64,000 bases of DNA, taken from positions 18,747,514 through 18,811,513 of the forward strand of contig NC_019862.2 of NCBI RefSeq assembly GCF_002234675.1. Direction: 5' to 3'. A program made the position numbers and the translations under genes. The stretch comes from Oryzias latipes (taxonomy: Eukaryota > Chordata > Actinopteri > Beloniformes > Adrianichthyidae). Shown piece by piece: positions 10,615 to 63,834 of this stretch. How positions within the stretch are numbered: the stretch's first letter is position 1; every line of letters starts with the position of its first letter. The notes below the pieces were generated by a model, which saw only the letters and a program-made list of their open reading frames with translations, did no database searches and had not been told where the DNA came from.

Positions 10615-11900
<1,286 letters not shown>

Positions 11901-25289: not shown

Positions 25290-26480
25290 AGTCATTCACA
25301 AGCCAGCTCAATGGCAAAAATAAGACCCAGGCAATAAACAGCTACACACTGCCAGTTATCAGATACCCTGCAGGAATAATAAGATGGCCAAAGGAAGAGA
25401 TACAGACCACGGATGTTAAAACACGAAAGCTCCTCACCATGCATGGAGGGTTCCATCCCAAATCCAGCACCCTGAGACTGTATGCTAGCCGCAAGGAAGG
25501 AGGCCGAGGACTAGTGAGCGTAGAAGCCACTATCCAGGATGAAACATCCAAGATGCATGAGTACATCAAGCTCAAGGCCCCAAATGACAGTGTGCTCAGT
25601 GAATGTCTCAGGCAATGGAGAGCAGAGGATACAGTGCTGGAGGACAGATCCTCATGGGAGGACAAACCCCTGCATGGGATGTACCACCGGACCATAACTG
25701 AAGTGGCTGATATCAAGAAGTCCTACCAATGGCTAGAAAGGGCTGGCCTACAGGACAGCACCGAAGCGCTCATCCTGGCAGCCCAGGAACAAGCCCTGAG
25801 CACCAGAGCAATAGAGGCTCAGATCTACCACACCAGACAAGACCCAAGGTGTAGGCTGTGCAAAGAAGCACCTGAAACAATCCAGCACATAACTGCAGGA
25901 TGTAAGATGCTGGCAGGGAAAGCATACATGGAGCGCCACAATCAAGTGGCTGGAATAATATACAGGAACATGTGTGCAGAATATGAACTGGAAACCCCAA
26001 GGTCAAAATGGGAAACACCTCCGAAGGTGGTAGAGAATGAGAGGGCAAAGATCCTGTGGGACTTCCAGATCCAGACTGATAGAATGGTAATGGCGAACCA
26101 ACCAGACATTGTATTGGTGGATAAAGAACAGAGGAAAGCCGTTGTGGTGGATGTGGCAGTGCCAAGCGATGGAAACATCAGGAAGAAGGAACATGAGAAA
26201 CTGGAGAAATACCAGGGACTCAGAGAAGAACTGGAGAAAGCCTGGAAAGTGAAGGTGACAGTGGAGCCTGTGGTAATTGGAGCACTTGGGGCAGTAACCC
26301 CCAAGCTGGAGGAGTGGCTACAACAGATACCTGGAAAGACCTCAGACCTCTCAGTCCAGAAAAGCGCAGTGCTAGGAACAGCTAAGATACTGCGTAGGAC
26401 CCTCAAGCTCCCAGGCCTCTGGTAGAGGACCCGAGCTTGGAGGAGAAACCACCCGCGGAGGGTGAGAGGGGCGTTTTTTT
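25290..26480 (+). mobile_element. 5'-truncated R4/Dong-type LINE fragment (Rex6-like) with endonuclease
   Basis: The frame is open from a stop at 25289 to 26425, with the first ATG at 25439 (328 codons from there). Upstream codons read SQLNGKNKTQAINSYTLPV, the end of the reverse-transcriptase part of such elements. Counting from the ATG, a C-x2-C-x8-H-x4-C zinc knuckle lies at C138, C141, H150, C155, followed by a restriction-enzyme-like endonuclease signature with PD at 222-223 and VVVDVAVPSD around 235-244. That order, knuckle then endonuclease after RT, is diagnostic for the R2/R4/Dong group; teleost Rex6 is a likely relative. The RT core is missing. A T-rich tail follows at about 26474. 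Confidence 0.75.
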
Positions 26481-42259: not shown

Positions 42260-42281
42260 GTGGGTGGAATAAATTTAACAG
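42260..42281 (+). promoter_or_regulatory. Conserved promoter block, mucin-like gene 1
   Basis: GTGGGTGGAATAAATTTAAC is closely similar to blocks before genes 2 and 3. The TATA-like AATAAATTT begins at about 42268, 72 bp before the ATG at 42340. Shared sequence plus fixed spacing suggests a common core promoter. Confidence 0.6.
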
Positions 42282-42339
42282 TGAGCTTACCAAGAAAATC
42301 ACTCAGTTTTCAGAGGAGTCAGAAGAAACTCAGCTAAAG

Positions 42340-45300
42340 ATGACAAAGTCACTAACATGCTTGATATTTGTTCTTGGATATTTTCAAGCCTGCAATGGAC
42401 AAAGTAAGTATATATGAGTTGCGTAATATAAGTTATTTTTTGATAAATTGCATAAATATTGCTTTTTGACTCTTTAACAGTTGTTAAATGTGCTATATTA
42501 AAGTATTAGCAATAATATTAAAAAAATGCAATTATTCAGTTGCTTAATATGTTCATTTAGAGGAAGTTTCAGCCTTTGTCTGTTTTAGAATAATGTTGAG
42601 GTATTTTCTGTAACTGTTTATTATGACATTGTTTGGCTGTTAAAAAGAATAATGAAAATGCCACCACAAATGTCTTCAAATTTTATTGGAAAATTAGAAA
42701 GTCTTTAATTTGACTGACTTGACATCGGACAAAGGCAAACATTTTAGAACAAACATCTTTATACAGAATAAAAGAAGTTGATACTTTATATGTTTAATAT
42801 TTTAAACAGTGAAAAGCCCTTTTAACAAGAATGACCTAAAACAGTAGCAAGAAAAAAACTAATGTATCAATAACAGATACATATTTAATTAAAATATAAT
42901 TTTACTTGTTTTACAGTTTCAATCGTATCAACGAATGAAACAACAGTATCAACTGCTTCTGCATCAAATGCAGAAACAACAATATTATCAACAGCAGAAG
43001 CAGTACAAACAAGATTACTGGAGAGTGCAGCAACAAAAATCATAGTGACTGCAAATACAACAGCCGAAACCACAATGACAATAGAAACAGCAGAAAACAC
43101 ATTGACAACACCAACTGCAACAACTGAAGCAACAGTACCAGCATCAACAGAATCAGAAAAAACGACATTACCAACAACAACCACAACAGATACAACAGCA
43201 CCGACAACAACAAAAGTGGCAATAACAACAGAAACTGAAACAATGGTAGGCAAAGCAACAGCTAAAGAAACAACAGTTCCAGCACAGACAACTGCAGAAA
43301 CAATTGTACCAACAACAGAGACAACAGCTAAAGAAACAACATTGGCAATAACAACAACAGAAACAACTGGGAAGTTAACAACATTGGCAGAAACAACCCT
43401 TGAAATGACAGCAGTACCAACAACAACAGAAACAACAGTATCAGAAGCAACAGCAGTGAAAGCAACACTGGCAATAACAACTGCAGCAGAAACAACTGTG
43501 ACATTAACAACACCAGCAGAAACAACCCTTGAAATAACAACAGTACAAACAACAGTACCAGCAACAACAGTAGCAGAAACAACAACAGAAGAAACATCAG
43601 TACCCACAACAGTAGTAAAAACATCCGTGGCAACAACAGCAGCAAAAGAAACAACAATACCAGAAACAAAATCGAAAAACACAACTATGGAAATAACGAC
43701 AACAGTAGAAGCAACAAAACAAGACAAAACTGCATCAGAAACCACGGTGCTATCAACATCAGCAGCAGAAACAACATTACCAAACACAACTTTGGGTATA
43801 AAAAGAACAGTAGAAGTATCAATGCAAGCAACAACAGCAGCAGAAACCACAGTACTAGCAACAACTGGGGTCGAAAAACTTTTACCAACAACAGCGACAG
43901 AAACAACAACACCAGCAACAGAAACAAGAATACCACCAACAACAGAATCAGACACAACTTTGGAAAAAACAACAACAGTACTGTCAACAACAGCAGAGGA
44001 TACAACAGTGCCAACAAAAACAGCAGCAGAAACAACAATACCAGCGAAAACAAAGGCAGAAACAACAATGCCGGCAACAATAGAAACAACATTGTCAGAA
44101 GCAAAAACAAAGGCAGAAACAACTTTCGACATAACAACAGCTGTAAAAACAACAGCACTGTCAACAACAGCAGAGTATACAACAGTACTAGCAAGAACAG
44201 CAGCAGAAACCACGGTACTAGCAACAACAGCAGCAGAAACCACGGTACTAGCAACAACTGGGGTAGAAACACTTTTACCAACAACAGCGACAGAAACAAA
44301 AACGCCAGTAACAGAAACAACAATACCAGCAACAACAAAGGCAGACATAACAGTGCTGGCAACAACAGAAACAACAGTATCAAAAGCAACAACAGCAGAC
44401 ACAACTTTGGAAAGAACAACAAAAGTACTGTCAACAACAGCAAAAGATACAACAGTACCAACAACAACAGCAGCAGAAACAACAATACCAGCAAAAACAA
44501 AGGCAGAAACAACAATGCCGGCAACAATAGAAATAACAGTATCAGAAGCAACAACAGCAGAAACAACTTTGGACATAACAACAGCTGTAAAAACAGCAGC
44601 GCTGTCAACAACAGCAGAGTATACAACAGTACTAGCAACAACAACGGCAGAAACCACAGTACTAGCAACAACTGGGGTAGAAACACTTTTACCAACAACA
44701 GCAGTAAAAGAAACAACAACACCAGCAACAGAAACAACAATACCAGCAACAACAGAGGCAGAAACAACAGTCCCGGCAACAACAGAAACAACAGTATCAG
44801 AAGCAACAACAGCATACACAACTTTGGAAAAAACAACAACAGTACTGTCAACAACAGCAGATGATACAACAGTACCAACAACAACAGCAGCAGAAACAAC
44901 AATACCAGCAAAAACAAAGGCAGAAACAACAATGCCGGCAACAATAGAAACAACATTGTCAGAAGCAACAACAGCAGAAACAACTTTGGACATAACAACA
45001 GCTGTAAAAACAACAGCACTGTCAACAACAGCAGAGTATACAACAGTACTAGCAACAACAGCAACAGAAACAACAATACCAGCAACAACAGAGGCAGAAA
45101 CAACAGTGCTGGCAACAACAAAAAAAACAGTATCAGAAGCAACAACACCAGAAACAACTTTGGAAAAAACAACAACAGTGCTGTCAACAACAGCAGAGTA
45201 TACAACAGTACTAGCAACAACAACGGCAGAAACCACAGTACTAGCAACAACTGGGGTAGAAACACTTTTACCAACAACAGCAGTAAAAGAAACAACAACA

Positions 45301-48300
45301 CCAGCAACAGAAACAACAATACCAGCAACAACAGAGGCAGAAACAACAGTCCCGGCAACAACAGAAACAACAGTATCAGAAGCAACAACAGCATACACAA
45401 CTTTGGAAAAAACAACAACAGTACTGTCAACAACAGCAGATGATACAACAGTACCAACAACAACAGCAGCAGAAACAACAATACCAGCAAAAACAAAGGC
45501 AGAAACAACAATGCCGGCAACAATAGAAACAACATTGTCAGAAGCAACAACAGCAGAAACAACTTTGGACATAACAACAGCTGTAAAAACAACAGCACTG
45601 TCAACAACAGCAGAGTATACAACAGTACTAGCAACAACAGCAACAGAAACAACAATACCAGCAACAACAGAGGCAGAAACAACAGTGCTGGCAACAACAA
45701 AAAAAACAGTATCAGAAGCAACAACACCAGAAACAACTTTGGAAAAAACAACAACAGTGCTGTCAACAACAGCAGAGGATACAACAGTGCCAACAACAAC
45801 AGCAGCAGAAACAACAATACCAGCAACAACAAAGGCAGAAACAACAATGCAGGCAACAATAGAAACAACAGTGTCAGAAGCAACAACAGCAGAAACAACT
45901 TTGGACATAACAACAGCTGTAAAAACAACAGCACTGTCAACAACAGCAGCAGAAACCACGGTACTAGCAACAACTGGGGTAGAAAGACTTTTACCAACAA
46001 CAGCGAAAGAAACAACAACACCAGCAACAGAAACAACAATACCAGCAACAACAGAGGCAGAAACAACAGTCCCGGCAACAACAGAAACAACAGTATCAGA
46101 AGCAACAACAACAGACACAACTTTGGAAAAAACAACAACAGGACTGTCAACAACAGCAGATGATACAACAGTACCAACAACAACAGCAGCAGAAACAACA
46201 ATACCAGCAAAAACAAAGGCAGAAACAACAATGCCGGCAACAATAGAAACAACATTGTCAGAAGCAACAACAGCAGAAACAACTTTGGACATAACAACAG
46301 CTGTGAAAACAACAGCACTGTCAACAACAGCAGAGTATACAACAGTACTAGCAACAACAGCAACAGAAACAACAATACCAGCAACAACAGAGTCAGAAAC
46401 AACAGTGCCCGCAACAACAAAAAAAACAGTATCAGAAGCAACAACACCAGAAACAACTTTGGAAAAAACAACAACAGTGCTGTCATCAACAGCAGAGGAT
46501 ACAACAGTGCCAACAACACCAGCAGCAGAAACAACAATACCAGCAAAAACAAAGACAGAAACAACAATGCCAGCAACAATAGAAACAACAGTATCAGAAG
46601 CAACGACAGCAGTCACAACTTTGGAAATTACAACAGCTGTAGAAACAACAGCACTGTCAACAACAGCACCAGAAACAACAATCCCAGCAACAATAGACAC
46701 AACAGTATCAGAAACAACAACAGCAGAAACAACTTTAGAAGTAACAACAGCAGTAGAAACAACAGTACTGTCAACAACAGTAGAGAATACAACAGTCGTC
46801 GCAACAACATCAACAGAAACAAAAGTACAGTTAACAACAGCAAAGGATACAACAGTATTAGCAACAACAGCAGCAGAAACAACAATACCAGCAACAACAG
46901 AGGCAGAAACAACAGTATTGTCAACATTAGAAACAACAGTATCAAAAGAAACAACAGTAGACACAACTTTGGAAATAAAAATACCAGCAACAACAGCATC
47001 AGAAACAACTTCAGCAGAAACAACAATGGCAACACCAACAGCAGAAACAACAGGACCAGCAACAACAGCAGCAGAAACATTATCCGAATCAACAACAGCA
47101 GGGACAACAGTACTAGCAACAACAGAAGCAGCTACAACAGCGACAATAACAACACCAGCAGAAACACCAGTTATAACTCTAGAAACAACAGTACCAACAA
47201 CAACAGCAGCAGCAGAGACAACAGTACTAGCAACAACTGCAACAAAAACAACAGAAGCAGCAACAACAATGGCAGAAACAACAGTGACAAGAACAACACC
47301 AGCAGAAACACCAGTTATATCACAAGAAACAGCAGTACCAGCAACGTCAGCAGAAACATCATTGTCAGCCAAATCCACAGCAGCAGATACAGTTGAACTA
47401 GCAACAACTGCAGTAAAAACATTACCACCAACAACAGCATCAAAAACAACAGAACCAGCAACATTTTCAACTAAAACAGCTGGAACAAGTGCTGCTAAAA
47501 CCCTTTATACAATCGGCTCATCTACAGCACCTTCAACAGCCAGAAAAACTACTGAGATTGCAACTACTATCAATGCATCCACAACTGCAGCAACTCCAAA
47601 ATCTACACTTTTACCAACAGGACCCACAGAAACAACCAGTCAAGGTAAGTGATTGCAAATGCAATTATGGGAGATCTGCAAATGTCTGTAAAGATATTTG
47701 GCCTTTCCTTTCCTTTTTTTTTAATAATCCAAAAACATGCTTCATAGGTCAATTTGCAACTCTAAATTGTTCATAGTTGTGAGTGTGAGAGTGAATGGAA
47801 GTGTGATATGTTGCCATGCAACAGACTGTCCAGGATGTCCCCTGCCTTCGCCCACAAATGGCCGGGATAGGCTCCGGCAGCCCCGTGACCCCAAAAGGGA
47901 CAAAACGGAAGAAGATGATTTATTCACTTTCAATTGTTAAATTTTTAGTAGGCATGCAGAAATTTAAGCTAGGATTCAGCACAAAGGAGTTATACATTAA
48001 AACTAACACTTAACAACATTAATTACTGTTTTGTAAATGGAAAAAATATTTATTTATTTGTCTATTTAGTTTTTGATCATGTTCAACTAGGCATATTTTT
48101 ACCACATGGATTTTATATTATAAATATACATTTTTTGCCTGCACTGGGTGTAAACAAAAATATAGTGCATTTTTGTTTGTTTGTTTATTTGTTATATCTA
48201 GGTTTCGAAGCCACAACTCGTCTGCGGATGAGATTAGCCACTTATGGAGGGGTCAGCAATGATACCGTCATCGAACTTATTAAGAAGGTATGTTAGCAGA

Positions 48301-48440
48301 ATGCAAAAAAACAAAAAACTGTTTACAACTGCTAAATGAGTATTTGCTCTCTCTTTATTCAGTTTTTCCAAGAACAGATCCTGAATGGAACAACAAGCAC
48401 AGTCACAGTAACAAACATCCATAGGGTCCCTAATCCATGA
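42340..48440 (+). CDS. Secreted mucin-like protein, paralogue 1 (Thr/Ala/Glu-rich)
   Basis: No named family recognised. Exons: 42340-42403, 42917-47644, 48202-48287, 48363-48440 (intron phases 1, 1, 0), all GT-AG, giving 1651 residues. Exon 1 encodes a signal peptide (MTKSLTCLIFVLGYFQACNG, likely cut before Q21). Exon 2 (about 1576 residues) is imperfect Thr-rich repeats such as ETTVPATT, with Thr written almost always ACA, and no cysteine seen. Such sequence would be a dense O-glycosylation substrate. Exons 3-4 encode a globular-looking tail (LRMRLATYGGVSNDTVIELI continuing into FFQEQILNGTTSTVTVTNI) with N-glycosylation sequons NDT and NGT. No transmembrane segment follows, so secretion is inferred. 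Two further genes downstream share the plan. Exon assignments are predictions. Confidence 0.8.
44601..45758 (+). repeat. Two tandem 579-bp copies inside exon 2 of gene 1
   Basis: Copy A is 44601-45179 and copy B 45180-45758. By eye they look identical over 579 bp (193 codons), so the frame is kept. Flanking sequence diverges at both edges. Related but diverged arrays occur elsewhere in the exon, for example the ACTGGGGT motif near 43868, 44254 and 45973. Confidence 0.85.
47727..47931 (+). mobile_element. Dispersed-repeat fragment in intron 2 of gene 1
   Basis: Contains CCAAAAACATGCTTCATAGG, AACTCTAAATTG, GGATAGGCTCCGGCAGCCCC and GTGACCCCAAAAGGGACAAA, the widespread fish repeat that usually ends in this tail. 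It shares the GGCTCCGGCAGCCCC-type core with the copy at 51705-51975. Confidence 0.65.
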
Positions 48441-48552
48441 GGACTATGTGTCCAAGCACAAATTCCCTTTTTACCTATAATGTGAGGAAGCGCTAGTAAC
48501 ATTTATTACGGGACAGTAATTCATCTTAAAGATTTTGTTTTTAAATTTTGTT

Positions 48553-48558
48553 AATAAA
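48553..48558 (+). promoter_or_regulatory. Polyadenylation signal, mucin-like gene 1
   Basis: AATAAA 113 bp after the stop codon; a second AATAAA is at 48662-48667. Confidence 0.5.
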
Positions 48559-48667
48559 AAATATTTGATTGTCTTTAAACATGTTACCCTGTTGGGGTTG
48601 GAAAGAAATGTTAAACTTTAAAATTTTGTTGATTTTACTCCGTTATAAGAATTTATAACACAATAAA

Positions 48668-49957
48668 TGAATCTCAAATTAAGCCATCTTCTCATCAGGT
48701 ATGTTTTTGATTATGAATGATTCATTGAAGATCAACAAGGAAGTTGGCAGCAATAACTTGGAATTTGAATGACTATTACTTATTGAAGGAGAATAATAAT
48801 AGAGCATTTTGATGACAACTAACTAGTTATGTCCATAAATGTTTGTTTTTTTCACTTTAAATCCAGAATGTGTTTTATGTAACATATTCCTAAAAGTGGT
48901 ACATTGACTTATAGTAGGGAATGCACTAAAGTCCCAGACCTTGTATCTGCATATTAGCGTGCACAAAAAGGCATTATTGAAAAAAAGAATACATATTTTT
49001 ACTCATCAGTTATTACATCATCATTTAAGCTTTGTAACTATTTTAGTAGCAGAATGTGTGCTTACATTAAAGATGGATTTATTTACTGTTAATATTATTA
49101 TTTAATGTGTTTGAATGTAATCAGTTGTTGCTTCTCACCACAAAAAAAGTGTTGTTAATGTTGTTTGTGAATGATGACAGCTAAAATTTAACAACTTTTG
49201 GAAATATTTTAAATGTTTTCTGGAAAAATGTTTTTTTAATGCAAATTATATTTAATGCTTTTAATCATAAATGAAAAATAAATAAAAGTGATAGTATTAC
49301 AGCATGTTTTTATGTTGTTAATTATGAGAATGCAAACGAATTGCAGATACAGGGAATTTTGTTTACCGGTAAATTGAATGAAGCAAACATTTGAAACTCA
49401 AACAGCAGAATGTAAGCAGACAGGAAACAAAAAAAAAAACTGCAACCACAAAAGGTCATTTTTAAAGAAATGCACAGCAGCTTACATTCCTTACCACTGA
49501 TGCCCTTCGGTCATGCTTCTTTTTTTCCTACTTTTATGTTCTGTTTTCTTTTTTCCTTTATCACCATCACATCAACTTTCCCTTTTGATCATTCACAAGT
49601 TTTTGTTAAAAGTAATCAGTCCGCCTTATATTTAAGTTTACACCTTTTATTAAGTTAGTATCAAGATATCTAGTTCACCCCCTCCTCTGTTCTTTTTCAT
49701 AACTCTTATATCAGTTTTTAGCTATGTCATGCTATAATTATTGTATAATACAATTGATGGCACAGTGCCAGTATTCTGCATTACTTACTTACTTACATTC
49801 ATATTACTGTCAATAGGTTGGAGCTGCACAAACAAAAAATCTTCATAATTAACACATCAAAGAGTTCAAAATGATATTAAACATTGAAAGGTTTGCAACA
49901 ACAACACAAGAAACATTAGACTCCTATAAAAAGCTGAGCGCACATATACACACACGG
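48668..49957. other. AT-rich intergenic sequence
   Basis: No gene, RNA or recognisable repeat was found in this stretch after gene 1. Confidence 0.4.
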
Positions 49958-50575
49958 GCCGCTTTATTAGGCACACCTGTCCAGCTTCTACTTAGAACCA
50001 GATTCTAAATAGCCAATTACATGGCATCAATTCAATGCATTCAGGCATGTAGACATGGTCAAGATGATCTGCTGCAGATCAAACCGAGCATCAGAATGGG
50101 GAAGAAATGTGATTTAAGTGACTTTAAACATGGTATGATTGTTGGTGCCAGACTGGCTGGTCTGAGTTTTTTAGAAATTGCTGACATACTGGGATTTTAT
50201 CTCATATCTGGGGTTTACAGAGAATGGTCTGAAAAAGAGAAAGTATCCAGTGAGTGGCAGTTCTGTGGGCGGAAATACCTTGTTGATGCCAGAGTTCATA
50301 GGAGAATGGCCAGACTGTTTCCAGCTTAATGAAAGGAAACAGTAACTCAAATGACCACTGGTTACAACCAAGGTCTGCAGAAGATCGTCTCTGAATGTGC
50401 AACACAACAAACCTTGATACAGATGGGCTACAGCAGCAGAAGACCACACTGGGTCCCACCGCAGCCAACAAATCTGCAGCAACTGCATGATGCCATCATG
50501 TCAATATGAACCAAAAGGAATGTTTCCAGTTGTTTAGTTTTGTCCTACATTAATAATAAAAGTTTCACCTAATCA
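49958..50575 (+). mobile_element. Internally deleted Tc1-like element
   Basis: Starts near GGGCCGCTTTATTAGGCACA and encodes the N-terminal transposase region MGKKCDLSDFKHGMIVGARL and FCGRKYLVDARVHRRMARL before a stop. The sequence then jumps from the GYSSRRPHWVP region straight to the C-terminal TNLQQLHDAIMSI region, so the catalytic domain is deleted. It is a non-autonomous derivative. Confidence 0.8.
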
Positions 50576-51239
50576 TTGTCAACTGTTTTTCTTAACTGAG
50601 GAAAAAGGACAGAAATGTAAAACGTAAACATTATCAAGTTGTGCTGAATCCTGTGTAAATAAAACTTTTAATTTGTATATTGATTTAATTCAATGGTTTG
50701 TCAGCGATATCTAGCCATAGTAGACATTTTGGTCTAACTGTTTGAGTCATATGTAATTGTCTGCACACCCGGAAAAAGGATATTGAGTTTAAGGAACTGC
50801 CAGTAAAGGGATAAACTTGAAAATGAAATGTGTACTTAAGGTATGATGGTTAACCAGTTTTGTGAGAACAAGTAATAACTGAACATTGTTAATGATCTAG
50901 TCAACTAATTAACTCAGTAAGCTGCATGGACAGACAATGGGAAGCAAAAACATAATTGTGCTTTTCTATGCAAACTTACTGAAGAGGTATCAAAATCTGC
51001 TGTTACTGCTATATAAGTGACCATTTTGGCTCTACAACACCAGTGCAGGACTATTACAATTGCTTGGGCCTGGTGCAAGTTGAAGTTGGAGAGGTCATAG
51101 TATTTCCATATGGGCAATATAATTTTTAAAATACAACTTAGAGATTTTTACCTTTGGCAGTTACCACAATATCTAAAATTACAAGCAAAATATAACAGTT
51201 TGATCAATCTAGGTACCAGTAAATGATTAAAAAAAGGAA

Positions 51240-51381
51240 TAATCAAAGTCAAAGTCAGCTTTATTTGTCAAATATGCTGCATACACATGGTATACAGCAC
51301 AAATGAAATTTCTTTCCTGTCGACCCACAGTGCAAGCAGCTTATGAAAATAACAACAACAACAATAATAATAATAATAATA

Positions 51382-51417
<36 letters not shown>

Positions 51418-51560
51418 ATAATAATTATAATAATAAAAGCAATCTAAATAGGTCAGTGCAAAAGTGAGATGGTTTAAAGTGACAGTTTAAAGTTACAAAA
51501 GTGAGTAGACGAGTGGGTTTTGGCAGTCTTTAGTGAAGATGATGTCCTGATGCAGGTGGG
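51240..51560. repeat. Dispersed repeat with an embedded AAT/ATT array
   Basis: AAAGTCAGCTTTATTTGTCA and CATACAGCACAAATGAAATT-like motifs mark a repeat common in fish genomes. Its middle holds AAT units followed directly by ATT units at 51355-51437, which form a potential hairpin. Confidence 0.55.
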
Positions 51561-51704
51561 AACGTTTTTCAGTTTAAGTTTGTAACAGCGAGGGGAGGGG
51601 GCAGAGGGGGTTGGGCAGGGAAGGAGTTGAGCTTCCTATAATACAAGGAATTCCGTTTTCTATACTTGATTAAAGCAAATTATGGTGAACTTTCCAGGGT
51701 GGTG

Positions 51705-51975
51705 CTGCATGGTTAGTGGTTAGCGCTGTTGCCTCACAGAAAGAAGGCCCCCCATTTCAAATCCTGGCTGGGGGACCTAAAACAGAACACCTTTCTGTGT
51801 AGAGTTTGCATGTTCTTCCTGTGCATGGGTGGGTTTTCTCCTGGTACTCCAGCTTCCTCCCAACATCCAGATTAATTGGTTACTCTAAAGTGATTTGTGG
51901 CCCCGCGACAGACCGGCGACCTGCATTCGCCCATGTGTGAGCGGCGTAGGCTCCGGCAGCCCCATGATCCCCATG
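51705..51975 (+). mobile_element. tRNA-like dispersed repeat (SINE-like)
   Basis: Carries GTGGTTAGCGCTGTTGCCTC and a degenerate B-box-like TTTCAAATCCTGG, then AGAGTTTGCATGTTCTTCCTG and a GGCTCCGGCAGCCCC tail. This is the widespread fish repeat related to the fragment in gene 1 intron 2. Confidence 0.65.
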
Positions 51976-51987
51976 AAGTACCTGAAA

Positions 51988-52240
51988 AGAATAAGCTGCC
52001 CTTGGTTTGACATCTTGGTTGTTTGTTAAGATTTGTCACTTCCTGTACTGGAGGGGTTTAAGTGAGTTTGAGTTGAGTTTTTATTTTATTTTTTTTAGCA
52101 GAGAAATTGTAAAACTGACTGATGACTGTCGAGTCTGCAGTGACATCACTTGGGTTACTTGGGAACAACAAAACGCATCATCACAAAGGCTACTACTTTG
52201 TGACTTGAACCTCTGAAAAGCGGTAAAGAGTGGAGACTGG
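51988..52240 (+). repeat. Copy 1 of a locally duplicated repeat
   Basis: Shares AGCTGCCCTT.GTTTGACATC, TCACTTCCTGT.CTGGAGG, TGCAGTGACATCACTT and a GTGACTTGAACCTCTGAAAA-like end with 53742-53980. The copies are in direct orientation about 1.75 kb apart and diverged by small indels. No coding potential was recognised. Confidence 0.7.
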
Positions 52241-53741
52241 AACTTCTCAAGGTGTACCCTGTATTTTCTCTATGAGGGCTAGTAAAGACTTATCCAACTC
52301 AGTGTATGACAGGTATATATAGTCAATAATTGAAAAACAAAAAACAAATAAATAAATAAAAAAATACCAATTTTTTTGTGCAAAACAAGCAAAAACATCT
52401 AGTTGAAACCAAAAATCTCAAGATTAATGGTAGAACCAGTCCACAACTTTAACTGGACATTTAAATGTTGCATAAAATAAACAAAATCACCTTAAAATTG
52501 TGTCTAAAAATAAAAAAAAGGGTTAGCTTACCCCCATACCCAAAACAATTACAGTTACTGAAGTTGCTAATAAAGTTTTCCTGTTAAAAAATGAAAGATA
52601 GTTACAGCACAAAAGTTTTGGATAAACTTTGGCTGAACATTTTATTCAATAGACTGAAAACTTGATGAACTTCATTAAGAGGCAGATTTAAATCTGAGGA
52701 CAACCAATCGGTGCAGAGTGAACTCTTTTTCTAAATTTTGTATTGCATGTGACTGTCAGAGGGTGGCAGCATTGTATGGTTAATCGTGAAAGATTGTTTT
52801 CATTCACTCATTGAAGTCATGTGACCACAGAAATAATAAACCTGGTTTCGGGAGCTCATGTTTCTATAGAGTACCCTCTTTTTGTGAACAGGTCTTGTTT
52901 CTTTAGAAAATTGATGAAAAGGAAGTTTTACACTATCATTTTTCTATTTAATAAATATAAGTATAATTTTAAACACTGCAATGGAACTGAGTCTGCGGTG
53001 AGTCCTGCTCTGTTACCATTACCGGTACTTTTCATTGCTGTTATACATGCAAAAATCTTAAATAGAACTAAATAGAAATAAATAGAACCGCACCAAATAT
53101 TACCATGTTTACAACATATTACAACAAATCATACAATTATATGGTGGAGAAGCATAAAATGTTAATGGATTTGTGCGTTAAATAGAAAGGGTAAAACTGT
53201 CTTCCATATGTTATAATTATCTCACTCATATGCGAGATTTGGCTCTCTATATAAAACATTAATCTTTAATTACTTTCTGAAAACAGTGTCCCTTTTAAAT
53301 TAACTAAATATTAACACATCTTTCCAATAAATCTCTGTAATAAGTTAAACCACACATTGATTAACCACCAGATATTTTCATGTTCATGCTATTTAAGCAT
53401 ATGTTGTGCTACCTCTCTAATGTTCAATGTCTATTTTAATTACAGAAACACTATTGAAACGTTTTTGCCACCAAAACACAGCTTTTTAAATGTCACCAGC
53501 ACACAGCTAAGTCACAAATAGACCCTTCTATTGTCATGTTCGAGAGAAGTTTTTCATAATCCGTCTGAGGTCTGCACTGTTCTTGGTTTCAGGGATCAGT
53601 GCTCTGCCATACCCCCGCAAGCATACCAAGTGTGTCATGCCCAAGAAAACTAAATAAACTGTAATTTGGGGTCAAAAAGAACCTGGCATGGATTTTAAAG
53701 TGGGATTTGAGTAAAGTCCTTATGATAATAGAAACTAAAAA

Positions 53742-53980
53742 AAATCAGCTGCCCTTAGTTTGACATCGTGGATGTTTGCCAGAGGAAGGGGGAAAATCCC
53801 TCCTAGTTAGGGATTAGTCACTTCCTGTTCTGGAGGAGTTAAAGTGAGTCTGCAGTGACATCACTTAGGTTACGTGGGAACAACAAAACGGATAAAAGAC
53901 ATGACCATCAAGAAGGTACCCTCACAAAGGCTGCCGCCATGTGACCTGAACCTTTGAAAAGTGGTAAAAAGTGGACACTG
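53742..53980 (+). repeat. Copy 2 of a locally duplicated repeat
   Basis: Partner of 51988-52240. Contains AGCTGCCCTTAGTTTGACAT, CACTTCCTGTTCTGGAGGAG, CTGCAGTGACATCACTTAGG and GTGACCTGAACCTTTGAAAA. Confidence 0.7.
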
Positions 53981-55100
53981 GACAGACGAATAAATCTTTC
54001 CAAATTGCTAATGTCAAAACACTCATTTAGAACGCACCAAATTAAATGTGAAATTAACACAATTGTTTTTGAAAGAAGAATTAAACTCAGCAAGAAGTTT
54101 TGTAAAGGCTGCTTTTCTTATCAAAACAAATGTTGGGGCCGTAATTTCAAAAAGCAGCGTGAGCACTATGCCTGGTGGCTGCTTTATGAGACCAGACAAG
54201 CCAGATTTACCAAGGACGCGGACTGGAAGGGTGGATGTGGGTTAAGTAAATCTGACTTTCGGTTTGCACGCCTATGTTTATACAGCAACAAAGTAATGTG
54301 GTTAAGCAAAAAAACTGAATGAATAAAAACACTGAACGAGCGTATAAAAAGAAAGTGTCTGACTATTCTGTCAAAAAGGTAAAAGTCATTCAAGACATGG
54401 ATGTTTTCTCACTTTTTTTATAGCCATATTACCACTTTTGTAAGCTTCAGTTGTTTCAAAAACTTAGTTAAGACATTTCAGATGGTATTTATGCTACAAC
54501 CAACAACCAATAATTAATTTTCTAAGTTTAACAAATATGTATAATAAAAGCTAAACACCTGACACTGAAGTGTGTGCGTATTCATGATCATCTAATGTTG
54601 TACTGATTAATAAAATACAAGGCAAAATGAACTTAACTGCACAGGGTAAAAAAGGAAAACCTGTTTGACAATGTCACATGAGAATTCCAGTAATGGATGC
54701 ACGAAAAAAGCAATGGAATTTGAACAGAACTGCTGGTTTAATGCATGAAAATTCCACTAAAGAAATCACTTCTGCCTTTATAGAGAAAACTTAACTGTAC
54801 ATTGAAAATCAGACCCCCAGCCAAGCGACGTCTACTATTATTACCAACTACCATATGTAGATTTGCTTTCTACACATATTCCTTGGATAAACCGGTTGTG
54901 AGAACTTGTTTTAGGGTAGTTAAATAGGAATTTTTTATTCGTCACTGTTAAAGGTCACTTTGTTTTAGTCTTATGTGGCTTTATAACTGTTAGTTTAAGA
55001 TTGTCTTTCTTTTGTTGAGATGCATTTATTTACATTTGGTGTTACAGGTTTACCAAAAAAACAAGCCGTCACCATCACCCTATCTCTGCTTGTGAATATG
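53981..55100. other. AT-rich intergenic sequence upstream of gene 2
   Basis: No gene or RNA feature was supported. The 52241-53741 stretch between the two repeat copies is likewise empty of recognisable features. Confidence 0.4.
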
Positions 55101-55130
55101 TGTGGGAGGAGCTGATTATAAATTTAACAG
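55101..55130 (+). promoter_or_regulatory. Conserved promoter block, mucin-like gene 2
   Basis: TGTGGGAGGAGC then GATTATAAATTTAACAG. The TATA-like core (TATAAATTT, about 55117) lies 72 bp before the ATG at 55189. It matches the gene 1 block (AAATTTAACAG) and the gene 3 block (GGGAGGAGC). Confidence 0.65.
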
Positions 55131-55188
55131 AGAACAACCAGTGAGGCAGTTTCTCTTTCATTAGAGGTCTGTGGAGAACTCACTCAAC

Positions 55189-58056
55189 ATGGAGACGAAA
55201 ATGTTGTTCTTGATTTTTCTTTTTGGACACTTTCATGCATCTTTTGAACAAAGTAAGTAGTCAAAATTAAATATATCTTGATTCATTGTTGTGCTTATTC
55301 ATTTAAGCTTTTGAAACATATGAGACAACAAAATGTTCTATATTTGAGTTATGTTATCTGACTCTGAGCAATCCATACATACAAAGTTTAATTGGTCTTA
55401 ACCTTACCCAACGAGTGAGTGAATACAGAAATGTTCATGATGGGTCAAGAAAATGAATTTCAAACAGATGTGTGCAAAAAAAGCTACTTTAAGAAGTTGA
55501 TAGATTTATTTACTTTCGTAATAGAAAATATTTTTTTGTCATTTTACATTACTAAATTGCCACAAAAAAAAAGGAAACATGAAAATGAAAGTTTTACCCA
55601 GTGTGATCATAGGTCAAACGTCTCACACAAGTTTTTAACAATCTAAAACTTTTTTACAGCAACAACTTCCTTAGCTGCAGACAACCAAACATTTGTCTCG
55701 GTAGAGACAATTACAAATTCAACGGATCCAGCAACAACAACAGTGGCACCAACAAGCTCAGCAATTACTGAGACTTCCTTGGCCACAACAGAAATTGCAG
55801 ATGCAGCAACCACTGCCCTCAACTTGACACAAATAACAAGAGCAGAGCCTCTGGTCCTCTCAACAGCAGCAGACACAACTACTACTACTATTACTTTAGA
55901 GCCAACAACAGCAGGACCTCCAGTCGTACCAACATTAGCAGGCACCACAACTACTACTGCTGCTACTACTTCAGAGCCAACAACAGTAGGACCTCCAGTC
56001 CAAACAACAGCAGCAGACACAACTACTACTACTGCTGCTACTACTACAGAGCCAACAACAGTAGGACCTCCAGTCCAAACAACAGCAGCAGACACCACAA
56101 CTACTACTGCTGCTACTACTACAGAGCCAACAACAGTAGGACCTCCAGTCCAAACAACAGCAGCAGACACAACTACTACTACTGCTGCTACTACTACAGA
56201 GCCAACAACAGTAGGACCTCCAGTCCAAACAACAGCAGCAGACACCACAACTACTACTGCTGCTACTACTACAGAGCCAACAACAGTAGGACCTCCAGTC
56301 CAAACAACAGCAGCAGACACCACAACTACTACTGCTGCTACTACTACAGAGCCAACAACAGTAGGACCTCCAGTCCAAACAACAGCAGCAGGCCCCACAA
56401 CTACTTCTGCTGCTACTACTACAACAGAGCCAACAACAGTAGGAACTCCAGTCCAAACAACATTAGCAGACACAACAAATACTTCTGCTGCTACTACTAC
56501 AGAGCCAACAACAGTAGGACCTCCAGTCCAAACAACATTAGCAGGCCCCACAACTACTTCTGCTGCTACTACTACAGAGCCAACAACAGTAGAACCTCCA
56601 GTCCAAACAACATTAGCAGGCCCCACAACTACTTCTGCTGCTACTACTACAGAGCCAACAACAGTAGGAACTCCAGTCCAAACAACATTAGCAGACACCA
56701 CAACTACTACTGCTGCTACTACTATAGAGCCAACAACAGTAGAACCTCCAGTCCAAACAACAGCAGCAGGCCCCACAACTACTACTGCTGCTACTACTAC
56801 AGAGCCAACAACAGTAGGACCTCCAGTCCAAACAACATTAGCAGGCCCCACAACTACTTCTGCTGCTACTACTACAGAGCCAACAACAGTAGGAACTCCA
56901 GTCCAAACAACATTAGCAGGCCCCACAACTACTTCTGCTGCTACTACTATAGAGCCAACAACAGTAGAACCTCCAGTCCAAACAACAGCAGCAGGCACCA
57001 CAACTACTACTGCTGCTACTACTACAGAGCCAACAACAGTAGGACCTCCAGTCCAAACAACATTAGCAGGCCCCACAACTACTTCTGCTGCTAATACTAC
57101 CGAGCCAACAACAATAGAACCTCCAGTCCAAACAACAGCAGCAGGCACCACAACTACTACTGCTAATACAGAGCTAACAACAACTTCAATCCAAACAGCA
57201 GTACCAAACACAACAACTACAACTACTTTAGAGCCAACAACAACAGTAGTATCTACAATCCAAACAGCAGCACCAAACACAACTACAACTACTTTAGAGT
57301 TAACATCAACAGCTGTGCCAACAACAACAACTATGCCAACAACATCAACAACTGTGCCAACAACAACTATGCCAACAACAACATCTTTTCCAACAACAAC
57401 AACAACAACTGGGCCAACAACAACTACGCCAACAACATCAACAACTGTGCCAACAACAACTTTGCCAACAACAATGACAACTTTGCCAACAACAACAACA
57501 ACTGTGCCAACAACAACAACTACTGTGCCAACAACAACACCAGCCCCAGCAAATGCTACATCTGTCAAATCAACTACAACTTCACCGATCACCATAACCC
57601 CATCAGGGAACACGACAAGTTTTCCAAGTAGGTGGTGATGGTTTTTCTCTAAAACATGCCAACTGATACTTTAATGAGATGAAACCGGCGAAAAACATTA
57701 TAAAATATTGTTTAATCTGTTAATGTTAGAGTTTTGTTAATTTAGATTTTTGCCTTTTTTTGAATTCCATATATATGTATAAATGCATAAACTTAACAAT
57801 TGCATTGCTTTTTATTTTAGATTTTGCACACATTCAGATGACCCTTACAACTAATGGAGAAGTCAGCAATGCGACCATTATTGAGCTTGTAAAACAGGTA
57901 TGTGGAAAAATAGTTCACTAAAAAGAAACTATCTTTAGATAGAAAAAGATGTAATTTTCTTTTTGTCTCTTACAGTTTTTCAACAATCAAATCTTCAATG
58001 GAACACCCCACATTGTCAGCGTTACAAACATTCAAAAAATTGGCCCCATCTCTTGA
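55189..58056 (+). CDS. Secreted mucin-like protein, paralogue 2 (25-residue EPTT repeats)
   Basis: No named family recognised. Exons: 55189-55252, 55660-57627, 57821-57897, 57976-58056 (phases 1, 1, 0), 729 residues. Exon 1 is again 64 bp and encodes a signal peptide (METKMLFLIFLFGHFHAS). Exon 2 (about 656 residues) carries about 17 units of a 25-residue repeat beginning EPTTVGPPVQTT, then a Thr-rich VPTTT/MPTTT tract. Exons 3-4 encode the conserved tail (IQMTLTTNGEVSNATIIELV continuing FFNNQIFNGTPHIVSVTNI), which aligns with gene 1 including both sequons (NAT, NGT). The exon 2 donor is taken as CCAA|GTAGGT because it preserves phase 1. Secretion and O-glycosylation are inferred from composition. 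Confidence 0.82.
55899..57170 (+). repeat. Coding minisatellite, 75-bp unit, about 17 copies
   Basis: Each unit starts GAGCCAACAACAGTAGGACC and encodes 25 residues. Early copies encode identical peptides and alternate two synonymous spellings after GCAGCAGAC (ACAACTACT or ACCACAACT). Later copies vary GPP/GTP/EPP and AAD/AAG/LAG. One unit has an extra Thr codon near 56419. Confidence 0.92.
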
Positions 58057-58248
58057 AACAATATGTGGATGAAATCCACAAATGAATCCGTACAATGGAA
58101 AGATAACTTATTGTACACATGTTGTGTTAAATGGCTAAAATGTTTTAGTTTACTTGAATACAGTTGTATTTGAGTTATTTTTAAACCACATTTTTATTCA
58201 TTTGTGTTGCCTCAAAAAAAAAAAAATTGCTGCCTTCCTTCCTTCCTG

Positions 58249-58254
58249 AATAAA
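58249..58254 (+). promoter_or_regulatory. Polyadenylation signal, mucin-like gene 2
   Basis: AATAAA 193 bp after the stop codon. Confidence 0.55.
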
Positions 58255-61080
58255 GAAACATGTGATATGTTTTTTGCTGTAATATGATGTAGTCTAACAT
58301 GAAAATCTGACATCAAGGAAACAGCAGTGTGGAGAACATTCCCATGATTTGCAGCTGTAAGAGTACACATTACACTAAAGAGGTTAAACAAGTCAAGTAA
58401 GTTTCAAGCTCATGCTTTTGATTTATCTACGATCAACAATGGACATGACTTCTCAGAAAGAGGAACTCAATGTTAAAAATCCTCATATTTTCTTTTTGGC
58501 TCTGGAGTCCTAAATGGGACTTTAAACCAGTCAAATTCTGCACAAAAGCATAAAAATGTTTGTATTTTTGTATAAAAACAAAAGATTTGTCAAATGTACA
58601 GAAAACTCCATGGCATTGTACAGGACATGTAAGGAGCACTTTTTGCAAACAAGATTACATTACACACACTACATTTAAGCACAACTTTCAGAGAATGTTG
58701 TGGAAAAAAGATGAAGGATAATTGTTTGTGTTTCCATCTGGTACAGATGAATTATATTTCCTTGCTCTTTGTGTACAGTTTAAGATGAATGAAGAAGATT
58801 TTTGATTGTTGTATTTTCTGAAAAAGAAAATGCTTTGAAAATGCTTTGAAAAGATAATGCTTTGAGAAATGCTTTGTGTTATAGTATCAAGAATTTCTCC
58901 TGTGTTGCTGATACTTCTATCTTTGTGATTTTAGTACCTCTTGTAAGAAATGTTAATCACATGACTTTTGAAGTGCATAACAACTCTTAAGACTCATTTA
59001 TTATGGAACGTCAAAAAACATATAAAGAGATGTAAAGCACACAGTGCCGTCTCTGTGTACCATTTTCTTGAAAAGACTAACAATAAAGGGAAACTTTCCA
59101 AAGAGAAGCTGTCAGACTGGTTTGGTGAATTGCAGCAAAACATGAGGGCATGCGCATAAAGACGTGTTAAAGGACTTTTTACATACATTTAAACAAAGCA
59201 CAAACATCAAGTGACTTATTAAATTGTGGAAAATGTTATCAAACTATTAAAGTGGAAAATATCTGACAGAAGCTTAAAGTGTTACACCAACAGTAACACT
59301 GTTAAAAGTGTGTAACATGTAAATACTCTATGATATAAACAAAAGCGGCTCACAATGACAGGGGGATTACAGTCCACTTGTTTTTGAACATGTTTTTGGA
59401 AAGTAGACTGAATAACTTTCAATTCATTGTTAGACTAGGAAATATGAAGATAAAATGTGTTCAAAAACAATCTTGACTACTAGATCCATGATTGCTTTAT
59501 ATAAGCTGTGATCACTGTTGTACTTCATAACCTGTTAAACCAGAAACGTAATACAGGTCACCAGCTTTGTCTAAACCACTGCTGGCCAAAATGGTTGAAA
59601 TAATGACATAAATAAATAGAAATATAGTGATAGGCAATGACATTTTCATTTGGAATCACACGGTAAACGTGACAACTGAACAGTGCACAAATTCCTACAA
59701 GCTCCAACTTCAAGAATGTTTTTACGTTTTTTTTACTGCCTGTTACCTGTAGGTTTCTTGGGCTAACGTTCTCTGTCAAAGTAATATCGATTTCTTTTGT
59801 TGAAATGGTTTAGCCACATCTTCCTTTTCTCCAACCAATTACCGGTATCCATCCATCCCTCATTCTTCTGGTTATCACAGGTGACTCACATGAGGAAATC
59901 AAGTTCTGTATTTTTTTAAAGTTATTCTATAGCTAAACAATCCTTACACAATACAAAGGTTGTAATGTGCAAATTTGTCCCAAGAAGGTATGCCTTTAAT
60001 AATTCACAAAGCTGTTAAAATTTGACCACAAAGCTGACATTATGTAGAAAGCTAAATTGAAAATAAACACTGGCACAAAACATCTTTCCAAGCTCTTGGG
60101 TGTAGAAAATAATTTAATGTTTCAGCACAAATGCTTTAAAAGCTGATTGTAAAAAAAAAGAAAAATACTCCCTCTTGTATTTTTTACCTTGTAAGTTGCT
60201 ATTTGTGTTAAAGACATTTTGAGAACAATAATACAACTTATAGCCTTAAGGAAGCAAATGCACTTTTGAGGCTCTTTATTAGCTTTAGGGGACAGACCTG
60301 AATGGATTTTGGGTTAAGTTTGAAGTCAAGGTTACGCCACACAAAGTAAAAAAATCAGTAGAAGTCCCAATGAGGGCTACATTTTAGCAGTTCTCTGACC
60401 ACCAACTATTTTTTTTTTTAACATAAGAATATAAAAATGTAAAAAGTAATGTTTAAATATATTTTTTTTAACCAAAAAATAAAATGTATGAACAGAAACA
60501 ATAAGATAACCAGGATAAACAATCTCCAGTTTTAAGTATTTGTATCTTAAACAACCAAATTTGCACATCTTAATGTGTTTTTTGGTCAAAGGATTTTTTT
60601 TCCACGTAAGAGCAAACCAGTTTGAAAGATGGAACTCTTCTCTTTTTTCTTTTCTTTATTGTTCAGCGTTATTAGGGCAGAAAGAAAGGAAACTAAATAC
60701 TGAACGGAGAAACTGCTATTGTCAGTGGTACGGTGCAAATCATGCAGCTGGACATAAACTCATTATTTTCCCCCATGATAACTACAAGCATTGATGTAAA
60801 ACAGTAAAACATTTCTAGTCCATATTTATTTCATGGGAGTTTGATGGTTTTTATCATTAGATTTGTTGTAACTCAAGGATTTTTAAATGGGTGGGTTTAT
60901 TTCTTGTTAATACAACAAATGTAAATATAAATTACAATCTTTCCATTGAAAACAGTTTTTGGAGTTATTTTGATGGCCCTTTATATACATCAATTTAGTT
61001 TATATGGAATTTGTGATCACACCAAGGATTTTTGGGGTGGTTACGACAAAAAGCTCTGTAACTGATACCTCCACTTTTTC
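58255..61080. other. Intergenic sequence between genes 2 and 3
   Basis: AT-rich with no supported gene, RNA or clear transposon. The short ORFs show no family motifs and no second copy of the mucin-like C-terminal module was found here. Confidence 0.4.
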
Positions 61081-61110
61081 TAAGGGAGGAGCAAATTACA
61101 AACTTAATAC
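61081..61110 (+). promoter_or_regulatory. Conserved promoter block, mucin-like gene 3
   Basis: AAGGGAGGAGC then AAATTACAAACTTAATAC. The AT core begins about 73 bp before the ATG at 61170. It is more diverged than genes 1 and 2 but keeps GGGAGGAGC and the spacing. Confidence 0.55.
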
Positions 61111-61169
61111 AAAAAGCCAGCACAGAGTCTTGCTGTGCCAAATAAGAATAAGAATAAAACTTACTCAAC

Positions 61170-63834
61170 ATGGGAAAAACAATATCATATTTAATCTTAT
61201 GTTGGGGATGTTTCTATTTTTTCTCTGCACAATGTAAGTATTTCTTTTTCAGCATTTGAATTACAGTTTCAGAATATAGCGCAAAATTAGGATTGTGTTT
61301 CCTTTTCATGTCAAATTCTGCTTTTAATTTTTCCTTCAATGTCTAGCTTTAAAAAAAAAAGTATCAATAACAGTGATTGTTAAAGCATACTATTAAAATA
61401 AACCATCTTATATTGTTTTTTTATCATCAACCATTTCAAAACAAGAGGAAAAACTACCGGTACTTCTTCTGGGTCACTTTGACAAAGGACACTTAAAGTG
61501 TAAATTGTCTTCACTGATATCACGGAAAACAAAACAAAGTAAGATAAACAAAAATAAACAAAAATTTGCAGTAATTTCCAAAAGCAATTATGAAAATCTT
61601 AGAAGTGTGCGTGAAGGACATCAGGATAAGCAATTTTTAAAAAAAGTAATATTTTTGTAGCAGGGTTTTCCCATCTGAAGATTAATCATCTCTCATACTT
61701 TCATCCTTTCTATGATTCTTGTCTTTATTGGGAAGCTACAGAGTTTAATAATCCATAATTTAATCAATCATTTACTGATTCTGAGAAACTGAAGGAATCT
61801 ATTTGCATCAGGGACAGGGCTGAAAACCTCGTATTATACTTTTACTTCCCCACCCATGCTTTGTTTTTGGCCTTCAGACAACACCAATACTTATTGGTCC
61901 AGTTGTGTCATTGAGTTTAATAAAAAGGGACCAGATATATTTAAAAAATATCCGGGGGTGAACAATCTGTGATTCTTGTTGGAGATAAATGCTTTGTTAC
62001 TCCAAAAGTTAACATTTGAACATGTCAACATCCAGAAGCCCCATCTTGTCTAGACCTATCTGTATCCACTGTATGCTTTGACCAATGAAATCTTCCCCAG
62101 GACCTCCCATTATAGTTTAAAAGCCTAACATGATCAGTCTGGCGCCGCAGATGTGGGCCTGTACCTGTTTGTTTTGCTAAACTTTAAACCTACTAATATA
62201 AAATGGTTGAATCCTAATAACTGTCCTCTTTTCTAAACTGAGTATAGTCACAACTACTATTAAGGGGGGATATGAGCGGTCTCTGGGCAAAGAAAATGGG
62301 CAAACCTGTGCGGGCATGTAGGTGGTTCGCACAAGATATCAAGATCATAGAGCACTCTGTGAGCCCGTAGAATGAAAATCTTCACATACATTTTTTTCTA
62401 CAGGCATGCTGTGGGCAACATGCCATATTGAACATATAAACAACTCGTGAGGATCAGTAAGGGTGAAGTAGGCGAGACGTGGGCATGTCATTTTTGCATT
62501 TACATGGTCAGTAAGGACCCAGGGCATAGAGCTCACTAATGACTAAAGTGCGGCATTAAGGCGCTATTCAACAAGCTCACCAGTACGCCATAACTGCATG
62601 CAACTTATATTATCCCTACAAATATTTCCTAATACACATACCACACGCACAATAATGGAGCGTTCTATTTTCATTATTCACCTGTCTACCACTCTCCACG
62701 GGCCCGGACAACCCAAAACCCTGCACACCCATACATGTCATCCCCCTTGTGCCTTATGTGAGTAAGGCAGAAGCTGCAGTATATGTATATGAATGTATTA
62801 CATCACTGTAAAAATGAAAACTTTCCAGTTTTTACAGTATTCAAATAAAATAAAAAAAAGTCAACAATTTTCCTGAGCTTTTGTTGTACCACTTCATAGC
62901 ATTTTAGTCAAAAACTAGTGTACCCTCAACAATTAAAGTAATAACCAACCCATTCTGCTGGTATTACAGCAACAGACACACCGGACACTTCAGGTGAAGC
63001 CCTACCACCACCTGCTGCTGTTCAACCCCCAACTCCACCACCAGCAGCTGCTCAAGCCTCAACACCACCACCTGCAGCTGCGACAGACCCAACACCACCA
63101 CCTGCAGCTGTTCAAACCCCAACTCCACCACCTGCAGCTGCTCAAGTCTCAACATCCCCACCTGCAGCTGTTCAAACCCCAACTCCACCACCACCAGCTG
63201 CTCAAGCCTCAACATCCCCACCTGCAGCTGTTCAAACCCCAACTCCACCACCACCAGCTGCTCAAGCCTCAACATCCCCACCTGCAGCTGTTCAAACCCT
63301 AACTCCACCATTTGCAGCTGTTCAAACCCCAACTCCACCACCTGCTGCAACATCGACAGCAGAAATAAACCTGACATCTGCAGTAGGTTTTGTTACCTCC
63401 ACCCCAGCACCTGTAGCAGCAAACATGACAGCAAGTGTCTCTCCAGTCCCTTTCATGGGAAGGATAACCGCTGTGAAAGATGCAAGTCAACAAGGTTCTT
63501 AATTTGACCTTTTGCTGATCACTTACACATGCACGTGTACTGCCTGTTGGTAATTACAACTTTTTCCATTTTCTTTTCTGAACCAGAATTGAAACATTTA
63601 GCGGTCCTACAGGTCGTCCTGACTAGTCATGAAGAGGTCAGACATGAAGCCATCAATGAGCTCATGAAACTGGTATGTAAAGCAAAATGCAATTAAACCA
63701 ATCAACAGGTTACATACAATTTTGCAACGATTGAGTGCCTGTTTTCTTTTTAGTTCTTCCAAGAACTGAACCTGGATGCAACAACATACATGGCCACCAT
63801 TACCAAATTTGAAAAAGTGAGAGATGATCCGTAA
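61170..63834 (+). CDS. Secreted mucin-like protein, paralogue 3 (Pro/Ala-rich)
   Basis: No named family recognised. Exons: 61170-61233, 62970-63494, 63587-63672, 63754-63834 (phases 1, 1, 0), 251 residues. Exon 1 is 64 bp and encodes a signal peptide (MGKTISYLILCWGCFYFFSA, then Q as in genes 1 and 2). Exon 2 (175 residues) has Pro/Ala repeats of 20 residues (TPPPPAAQASTSPPAAVQ) and a short non-repetitive end. Exons 3-4 encode the tail (LQVVLTSHEEVRHEAINELM continuing FFQELNLDATTYMATITKF), recognisably the module of genes 1 and 2 but without their N-glycosylation sequons. The exon 2 donor GTTCTT is weak but keeps phase. Thr content is far lower than in its neighbours, so heavy O-glycosylation is less certain. 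Confidence 0.75.
61234..62969 (+). other. Intron 1 of mucin-like gene 3
   Basis: At 1.74 kb this is the longest intron of the cluster; gene 1 and 2 first introns are about 0.5 and 0.4 kb. It looks AT-rich with a less AT-rich segment near 62270-62760 of unknown origin. No coding sequence was supported. Confidence 0.5.
63001..63340 (+). repeat. Coding minisatellite, 60-bp unit
   Basis: Units of CTCCACCACCACCAGCTGCT plus CAACATCCCCACCTGCAGCT repeat at exactly 60 bp between about 63111 and 63300. Outer units are degenerate and shorter. It encodes the Pro/Ala repeat of gene 3. Confidence 0.88.

Follow-up and report, generated by a model that had tools for sequence, protein, structure and literature searches.

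A 64,000-nucleotide stretch of the Oryzias latipes genome (contig NC_019862.2; hereafter the window) carries three plus-strand genes, g1, g2 and g3 in that order, which look real and are probably functional members of a family encoding secreted, mucin-like proteins. Exon joining confirmed that they share the four-exon plan described in an earlier note on this DNA, with the sizes and phases given there: a 64-bp signal exon, a repeat exon of phase 1–1 and two short exons encoding a C-terminal module. Exon lengths, counting the stop codon with the last exon, are 64, 4728, 86 and 78 bp in g1, 64, 1968, 77 and 81 bp in g2 and 64, 525, 86 and 81 bp in g3; phases run 0–1, 1–1, 1–0 and 0–stop in every gene, and the proteins comprise 1651, 729 and 251 aa, respectively. 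The first intron is in phase 1 in all three genes, after 64 bp, that is, following codon 21. GT–AG borders flank 9/9 introns, and eight donors match the consensus at 7–9 of 9 positions; the remaining one, that of g3 exon 2 (63485–63503; AAG/GTTCTT, slash at the border), matches at 6 of 9, and the frame, if unspliced, stops two codons further on. AATAAA signals lie downstream of g1 (48553 and 48662) and g2 (58249), and none follows g3 before the window ends. No fourth copy of the module was found within the window (best other profile matches, E 1 for the exon 3 part and E 0.56 for the exon 4 part), and the cluster could continue beyond its end.

The C-terminal module, 52–55 residues encoded by exons 3 and 4, supports treating the trio as one homologous family. 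Pairwise module scores of 124, 73 and 75, set against shuffle maxima of 48, 44 and 45, were reached by 0/2000 shuffles in each pair, bearing out the claim that the same module closes all three proteins. Identity to the g1 module is 51% for g2 and 31% for g3, and the DNA of the module also aligns in all three pairs (E 3.4e-6, 1.6e-9 and 7.7e-4). Between g1 and g2 the proportions of synonymous (pS) and non-synonymous (pN) differences are 0.70 and 0.26, giving a non-synonymous to synonymous rate ratio (dN/dS) of 0.15 (Fisher p 3.8e-6, on rounded counts); the g1–g2 module is under purifying selection. N-glycosylation sequons number two in the g1 module, two in that of g2 (one followed by Pro) and none in that of g3.

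The repeat exons behave differently from the module. Periods of 25 residues in g2 and of 20 residues (also 40 and 30) in g3 agree with the earlier description, whereas 'irregular' was an incomplete account of g1, whose top lags are 10, 193, 112, 240 and 5 residues and whose exon 2 combines a 5/10-residue period with a 193-residue (579-bp) higher-order repeat. A 598-bp segment of this exon recurs exactly at the 579-bp lag (44601–45198 and 45180–45777), which, barring an assembly effect, points to recent tandem expansion; the repeat at this lag is likely to be either length-polymorphic or an assembly effect. In g2, 17 EPTT anchors are spaced by 25 residues in 15 of 16 intervals and by 26 in the other. 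That a symmetric exon is free to change in frame was upheld by the 1–1 phase in all three genes and by the 60-mer repeat lags of g1 exon 2, all of which (10/10) are multiples of 3.

No homology was detectable among the three middles beyond composition and short words, the form in which the earlier description of them as unrelated, too strongly worded, can stand. Whole exon-2 scores for g1–g2, g1–g3 and g2–g3 were reached by 148, 79 and 139 of 200 shuffles of 5-residue blocks; with single-residue shuffles the figures were 2, 85 and 175 of 200, the low g1–g2 value arising because short Thr-rich words are common to both. Six pair tests of exon-2 heads and tails gave no likeness beyond chance (331–1944 of 2000 shuffles reached the score). 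DNA alignments between the g1 and g2 middles reach E 1.6e-16 at 67% in CAA/ACA-rich stretches, a likeness that we would ascribe to shared low complexity, with a common Thr-rich ancestor exon possible. The picture of interchangeable, swapped middles found no backing; no exon exchange was seen among the three genes. Nor did that of a diversifying cassette: pN/pS between g1 repeat copies at six lags was 0.97, 1.50, 1.06, 1.01, 1.18 and 1.38 (the lags overlap, and a rule-of-thumb 0.7/0.3 split was applied to codons with at least two changes), showing no sign of residue-level constraint and nothing indicative of diversifying selection. Among 15 g2 units, with the 26-residue unit dropped, raw counts were 3 synonymous and 15 non-synonymous changes. 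The repeats look neutral, which fits unconstrained drift together with unequal crossing-over.

In composition, all three exon-2 products are repetitive regions rich in proline, threonine and serine (PTS), the hallmark of mucins; Pro, Thr and Ser make up 48.5%, 60.2% and 50.3% of exon 2 in g1, g2 and g3, and Thr alone accounts for 39% in g1. With signal peptides, judged by eye, at the N termini, this agrees with the secreted, mucin-like character proposed earlier. Acidic residues outnumber basic ones in exon 2 of g1 (194 to 79) and g2 (39 to 2). The mature chains contain 0, 0 and 0 cysteines, and hence none of the cysteine-rich VWD/C8/CK ends of gel-forming mucins. No transmembrane-like segment of the kind found in SEA-type membrane mucins follows the signal by hydropathy (highest 19-residue values 0.94, 0.63 and 1.06 in g1, g2 and g3). 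The parts scanned, namely all three modules, the whole of g3 and the N-terminal 388 aa of g1 and 191 aa of g2 (what lies between these and the modules is repeat), matched no VWD or SEA domain; a scan of this Pfam type would miss a lone C-terminal half of SEA, as a MUC1 control showed.

The module looks new by searches of Pfam, the Protein Data Bank (PDB) and phage and viral collections. No Pfam family reached its cut-off, in keeping with the failure to recognize a named family from the letters alone; the g2 and g3 modules had no match at all, and that of g1 had three below cut-off (HTH_Crp_2, E 0.051; Peptidase_M16_C, E 0.073; EFG_IV, E 0.073). A three-row profile of the module matched 13 distinct PDB sequences up to E 10, including three chains of mitochondrial processing peptidase beta (E 3.9e-4, 5.1e-3 and 0.01), two of which the single g1 module matched at E 0.59 and 1.5. 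Because a mitochondrial peptidase is an implausible relative, we judged this likeness, which together with the M16 Pfam match covers about the first 37 positions, to be a chance or convergent strand–turn–helix match. The phage collection gave no module match and the viral contigs gave 600 pattern matches of which 0 were confirmed, blanks that carry little weight because, as far as is known, these collections hold no fish. AlphaFold2 models, with two sequences as input, of the g1 module (pLDDT 62.8, pTM 0.39, one helix at 20–34) and the g3 module (pLDDT 60.2, pTM 0.35, three helices and nothing else) are both of low confidence and share the middle helix only. A Foldseek search of the PDB with the g1 module model returned 0 matches up to E 10.

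Coordinates of the exons and upstream blocks of g1, g2 and g3 within the window
Feature	Position	Strand	Basis
g1 upstream stretch, like g2 upstream (55037–55133)	42201..42284	+	g1–g2: 0/1000 shuffles
g1 exon 1: start codon and signal peptide, phase-1 end	42340..42403	+	exon joining; signal by inspection
g1 exon 2: Thr-rich repeat exon, 4728 bp, phase 1–1	42917..47644	+	exon joining; composition; repeats
g1 exon 3: C-terminal module, first part	48202..48287	+	exon joining; shuffle test; profile search
g1 exon 4: C-terminal module, second part, and stop	48363..48440	+	exon joining; shuffle test; profile search
g2 upstream block common to g3	55104..55141	+	g2–g3: 2/1000 shuffles
g2 exon 1: signal exon	55189..55252	+	exon joining; shuffle test
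g2 exon 2: 25-residue units, then irregular Thr-rich tail, phase 1–1	55660..57627	+	exon joining; composition; EPTT spacing
g2 exon 3: C-terminal module, first part	57821..57897	+	exon joining; shuffle test; profile search
g2 exon 4: C-terminal module, second part, and stop	57976..58056	+	exon joining; shuffle test; profile search
g3 counterpart of g2 upstream block	61084..61120	+	g2–g3: 2/1000 shuffles
g3 exon 1: signal exon	61170..61233	+	exon joining; likeness to g1/g2 not clearly above chance
g3 exon 2: Pro/Ala/Thr repeat exon, 20/40/30-residue lags, phase 1–1, weak donor	62970..63494	+	exon joining; repeat lags
g3 exon 3: C-terminal module, first part	63587..63672	+	exon joining; shuffle test; profile search
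g3 exon 4: C-terminal module, second part, and stop	63754..63834	+	exon joining; shuffle test; profile search

On balance we favour, with reasonable though incomplete confidence, a family of mucin-like proteins that arose by tandem duplication, are secreted and lack cysteine, and in which the module is held while the middle expands freely. The signal peptide would send each chain to the secretory pathway, where O-glycosylation of the Thr and Ser residues of the repeat exon would yield a stiff, hydrated bottle-brush, acidic in g1 and g2. The C-terminal module would be the part whose sequence must be kept, and since it has neither a cysteine nor a membrane anchor, it would most likely act non-covalently, by binding to itself or to a partner or in the packing of chains into secretory granules. 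Slippage and unequal crossing-over may change the length and charge of the brush and leave frame and module untouched, because the repeat exon is symmetric in phase and its units are multiples of three. The gene copies would have come by drift to encode different brushes, while their 5′ flanks are still shared in part; by inspection, the upstream block of g2 includes a TATA-like element, TATAAAT, some 70 bp ahead of the ATG. A bolder proposal, which we consider rather unlikely, makes the module a non-covalent cross-linker of a kind not yet described in vertebrates, through which a cysteine-free mucus or adhesive would gel, in convergence with insect glue; if so, freely evolving repeat exons would set chain length and charge. 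Each of three adjacent genes couples a constrained end to a brush under no constraint, an arrangement in which the evolution of mucin-type brushes beside a small conserved module may be tested directly.

Several observations weigh against the favoured reading. The trio is described here from its DNA sequence, AlphaFold2 provides no confident fold for the module, and the role given to the module is our inference. Module dN/dS rises to 0.50 and 0.54 in the comparisons with g3, which is also less mucin-like, being richer in Pro and Ala with Thr at 15%. Signal exons of g1 and g2 are alike at the protein level (0/2000 shuffles), but that of g3 is not clearly above chance against either g1 (125/2000) or g2 (136/2000), and across the three pairs the signal exons are little constrained (pS/pN 0.50/0.37, 0.48/0.44 and 0.81/0.40). 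The C-terminal end is therefore the only one demonstrably held, and the fixed ends claimed in the earlier note apply at the signal exon to g1 and g2, not clearly to g3. Upstream DNA of g1 and g3 lacks likeness (974/1000 shuffles reach the score). With its poor exon-2 donor, unclear signal exon and lack of upstream likeness to g1, g3 could be decaying or regulated apart, and it is the weak member of the trio. Finally, the antisense strand of g1 exon 2 is open for 1528/1575 codons, and long open frames alone prove little.

That last point bears on the idea that the open frames are a by-product of CAA/ACA-rich low-complexity DNA near small exons, some or all copies being non-functional. In g1 and g2, exon 2 can be read through on either strand, with minus-strand frames at 42885–47504 (1539 aa) and 55643–57670 (675 aa), and the g3 exon-2 donor is weak. 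Codon-order shuffles matched the antisense open run in 44/200 cases for g1, 0/200 for g2 and 10/200 for g3; shuffling destroys repeats, so the g2 figure is no evidence of an antisense gene, and because antisense openness is matched by codon shuffles, an open frame alone is not coding evidence. Codon make-up and repetition account at least in part for the antisense frames. Three copies with identical phases and GT–AG borders, the homology of the module and its purifying selection, and AATAAA after g1 and g2 all speak for genes instead, making the by-product explanation quite improbable. Marginally less so is a remnant of a SEA-type membrane mucin, secreted from the start and bereft of its membrane anchor, with the module as half a SEA domain. 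The arrangement of PTS repeats ahead of a short C-terminal module is reminiscent of SEA mucins, a crude propensity profile of the module reads strand, mixed middle, strand, and Pfam silence does not exclude a SEA C-half because that of MUC1 is likewise silent. Yet no SEA match appeared up to E 10, and 12 tests of modules against SEA N-halves were unconvincing (best, 50/1000 shuffles), with controls at 0/1000 in 4/4 cases. Nine tests against C-halves gave at best 191/1000 but had low power, as 2/3 controls failed (MUC1 against MUC16 and MUC1 against 1ivz; MUC16 against 1ivz succeeded). Scores from a profile comparison were reached by 147, 35 and 61 of 200 column shuffles, in a test whose positive control also failed. 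The AlphaFold2 models, both poor, show no strands, that of g3 being all helix, and the empty Foldseek result for the g1 module tells against SEA as well.

The strongest competitor, a genuine contender though clearly behind, is a structural adhesive or coagulum family of egg, skin, nest or semen rather than epithelial mucus, with a brush middle and a binding end: a vertebrate counterpart of the Drosophila salivary-glue Sgs genes and of the REST genes (semenogelin, Svs). Passages of PMC10835880 and PMC6352337 describe the same logic for Sgs, with a signal peptide, an intron in phase 1, a repeat region that varies and a C terminus that is conserved, and striking repeat differences between Sgs3 duplicates, and parts of PMC7556508 describe REST genes whose major exon diverges although the signal exon and its flanks are kept. 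Sgs C termini carry cysteine, however, and the modules here have none; Gln/Lys-rich cross-linking repeats, as in REST relatives, were not apparent by inspection. Thr and Ala make up 52% of both g1 and g2, which might suggest antifreeze-glycoprotein-like repeats. The antifreeze glycoprotein unit is Ala-Ala-Thr, but no three-residue period occurs here (top lags 10 and 193 in g1, 25 in g2 and 20 in g3), and we regard this explanation as very improbable indeed.

The cluster stands head to head with a gene to its left, on the minus strand, that we take to be ttc14, one of whose six exon frames searched (1/6) has a TPR Pfam match (32558–32704). Between these opposite-strand ttc14-like exons, a 1041-aa stop-to-stop frame (33802–36927, plus strand) with endonuclease and reverse transcriptase domains is a LINE-type element and may be recent. 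Elsewhere on the plus strand, a fragment of a Tc1/Tc3-type transposase (HTH_Tnp_Tc3_2) lies at 11168–11731, and a 377-aa frame at 25292–26425 with a zf-RVT match below cut-off is probably a retroelement remnant. Rfam searches at gathering level and tRNA searches of the window found none.

Among the matches listed from open-licence literature, which lacks most subscription journals, no paper had this three-gene family as its topic, as judged by title and the start of the abstract. Several known systems resemble it in part. By the rule given in PMC1552070, a mucin other than MUC7 or MUC20 combines its PTS domain with a VWD or SEA domain; the scanned parts of the trio had no such match. The PTS domains known before that paper each lie, it states, in one exon, as they do here. 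The trio resembles soluble MUC7-type mucins, MUC7 being called soluble in an abstract, in having PTS repeats without VWD or SEA and expansion of the variable number tandem repeat (VNTR) type (parts of PMC1552070 and PMC12776774, the latter a review in which mucins arise by VNTR gain), but differs in that it comprises several gene copies and has a conserved C-terminal module of its own. Repeat regions also occur in two fish mucins of the gilthead sea bream, I-Muc and Muc13; unlike the trio, both are anchored in the membrane and carry transmembrane and SEA or EGF domains, none of which was seen here (excerpts of PMC3680472 and PMC11035888). Repeated PTS stretches upstream of sea bream imuc may belong to a further tandem mucin (excerpt of PMC11035888).

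Closer in organization are the Sgs and REST genes. In the portions of PMC10835880 and PMC6352337 that describe them, Sgs1, Sgs3, Sgs7 and Sgs8 have two coding exons; a phase-1 intron interrupts their signal peptide at residue 10, and the C terminus bears an IRXC[L/V]C motif (PMC10835880). Like the trio they are secreted, occur in clustered copies and have an intron of phase 1 at or close to the signal peptide; Sgs1 and Sgs3 add a long Thr/Pro/Ser-rich repeat region, different from one paralogue to the next, and Sgs3 a short conserved C terminus of about 50 aa. Compared by description only, the trio departs from them in its four coding exons, its intron after codon 21 and its cysteine-free C terminus. 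REST genes, as portrayed in parts of PMC7556508, also form a cluster in which the signal exon and flanks are kept, internal repeat expansion having changed the major exon past recognition; they mostly have three exons, the third non-coding, and in the species of that study their locus is flanked by Matn4 and Kcns1, whereas the trio has four coding exons, of which the last two encode the conserved module, and a ttc14-like gene as the sole neighbour seen. The trio thus works like some of the Sgs, REST, gel-forming and membrane mucin genes, but its membership of any of these families is not established, because each has at least one defining feature that it lacks; it would add a vertebrate counterpart to the Sgs and REST genes.

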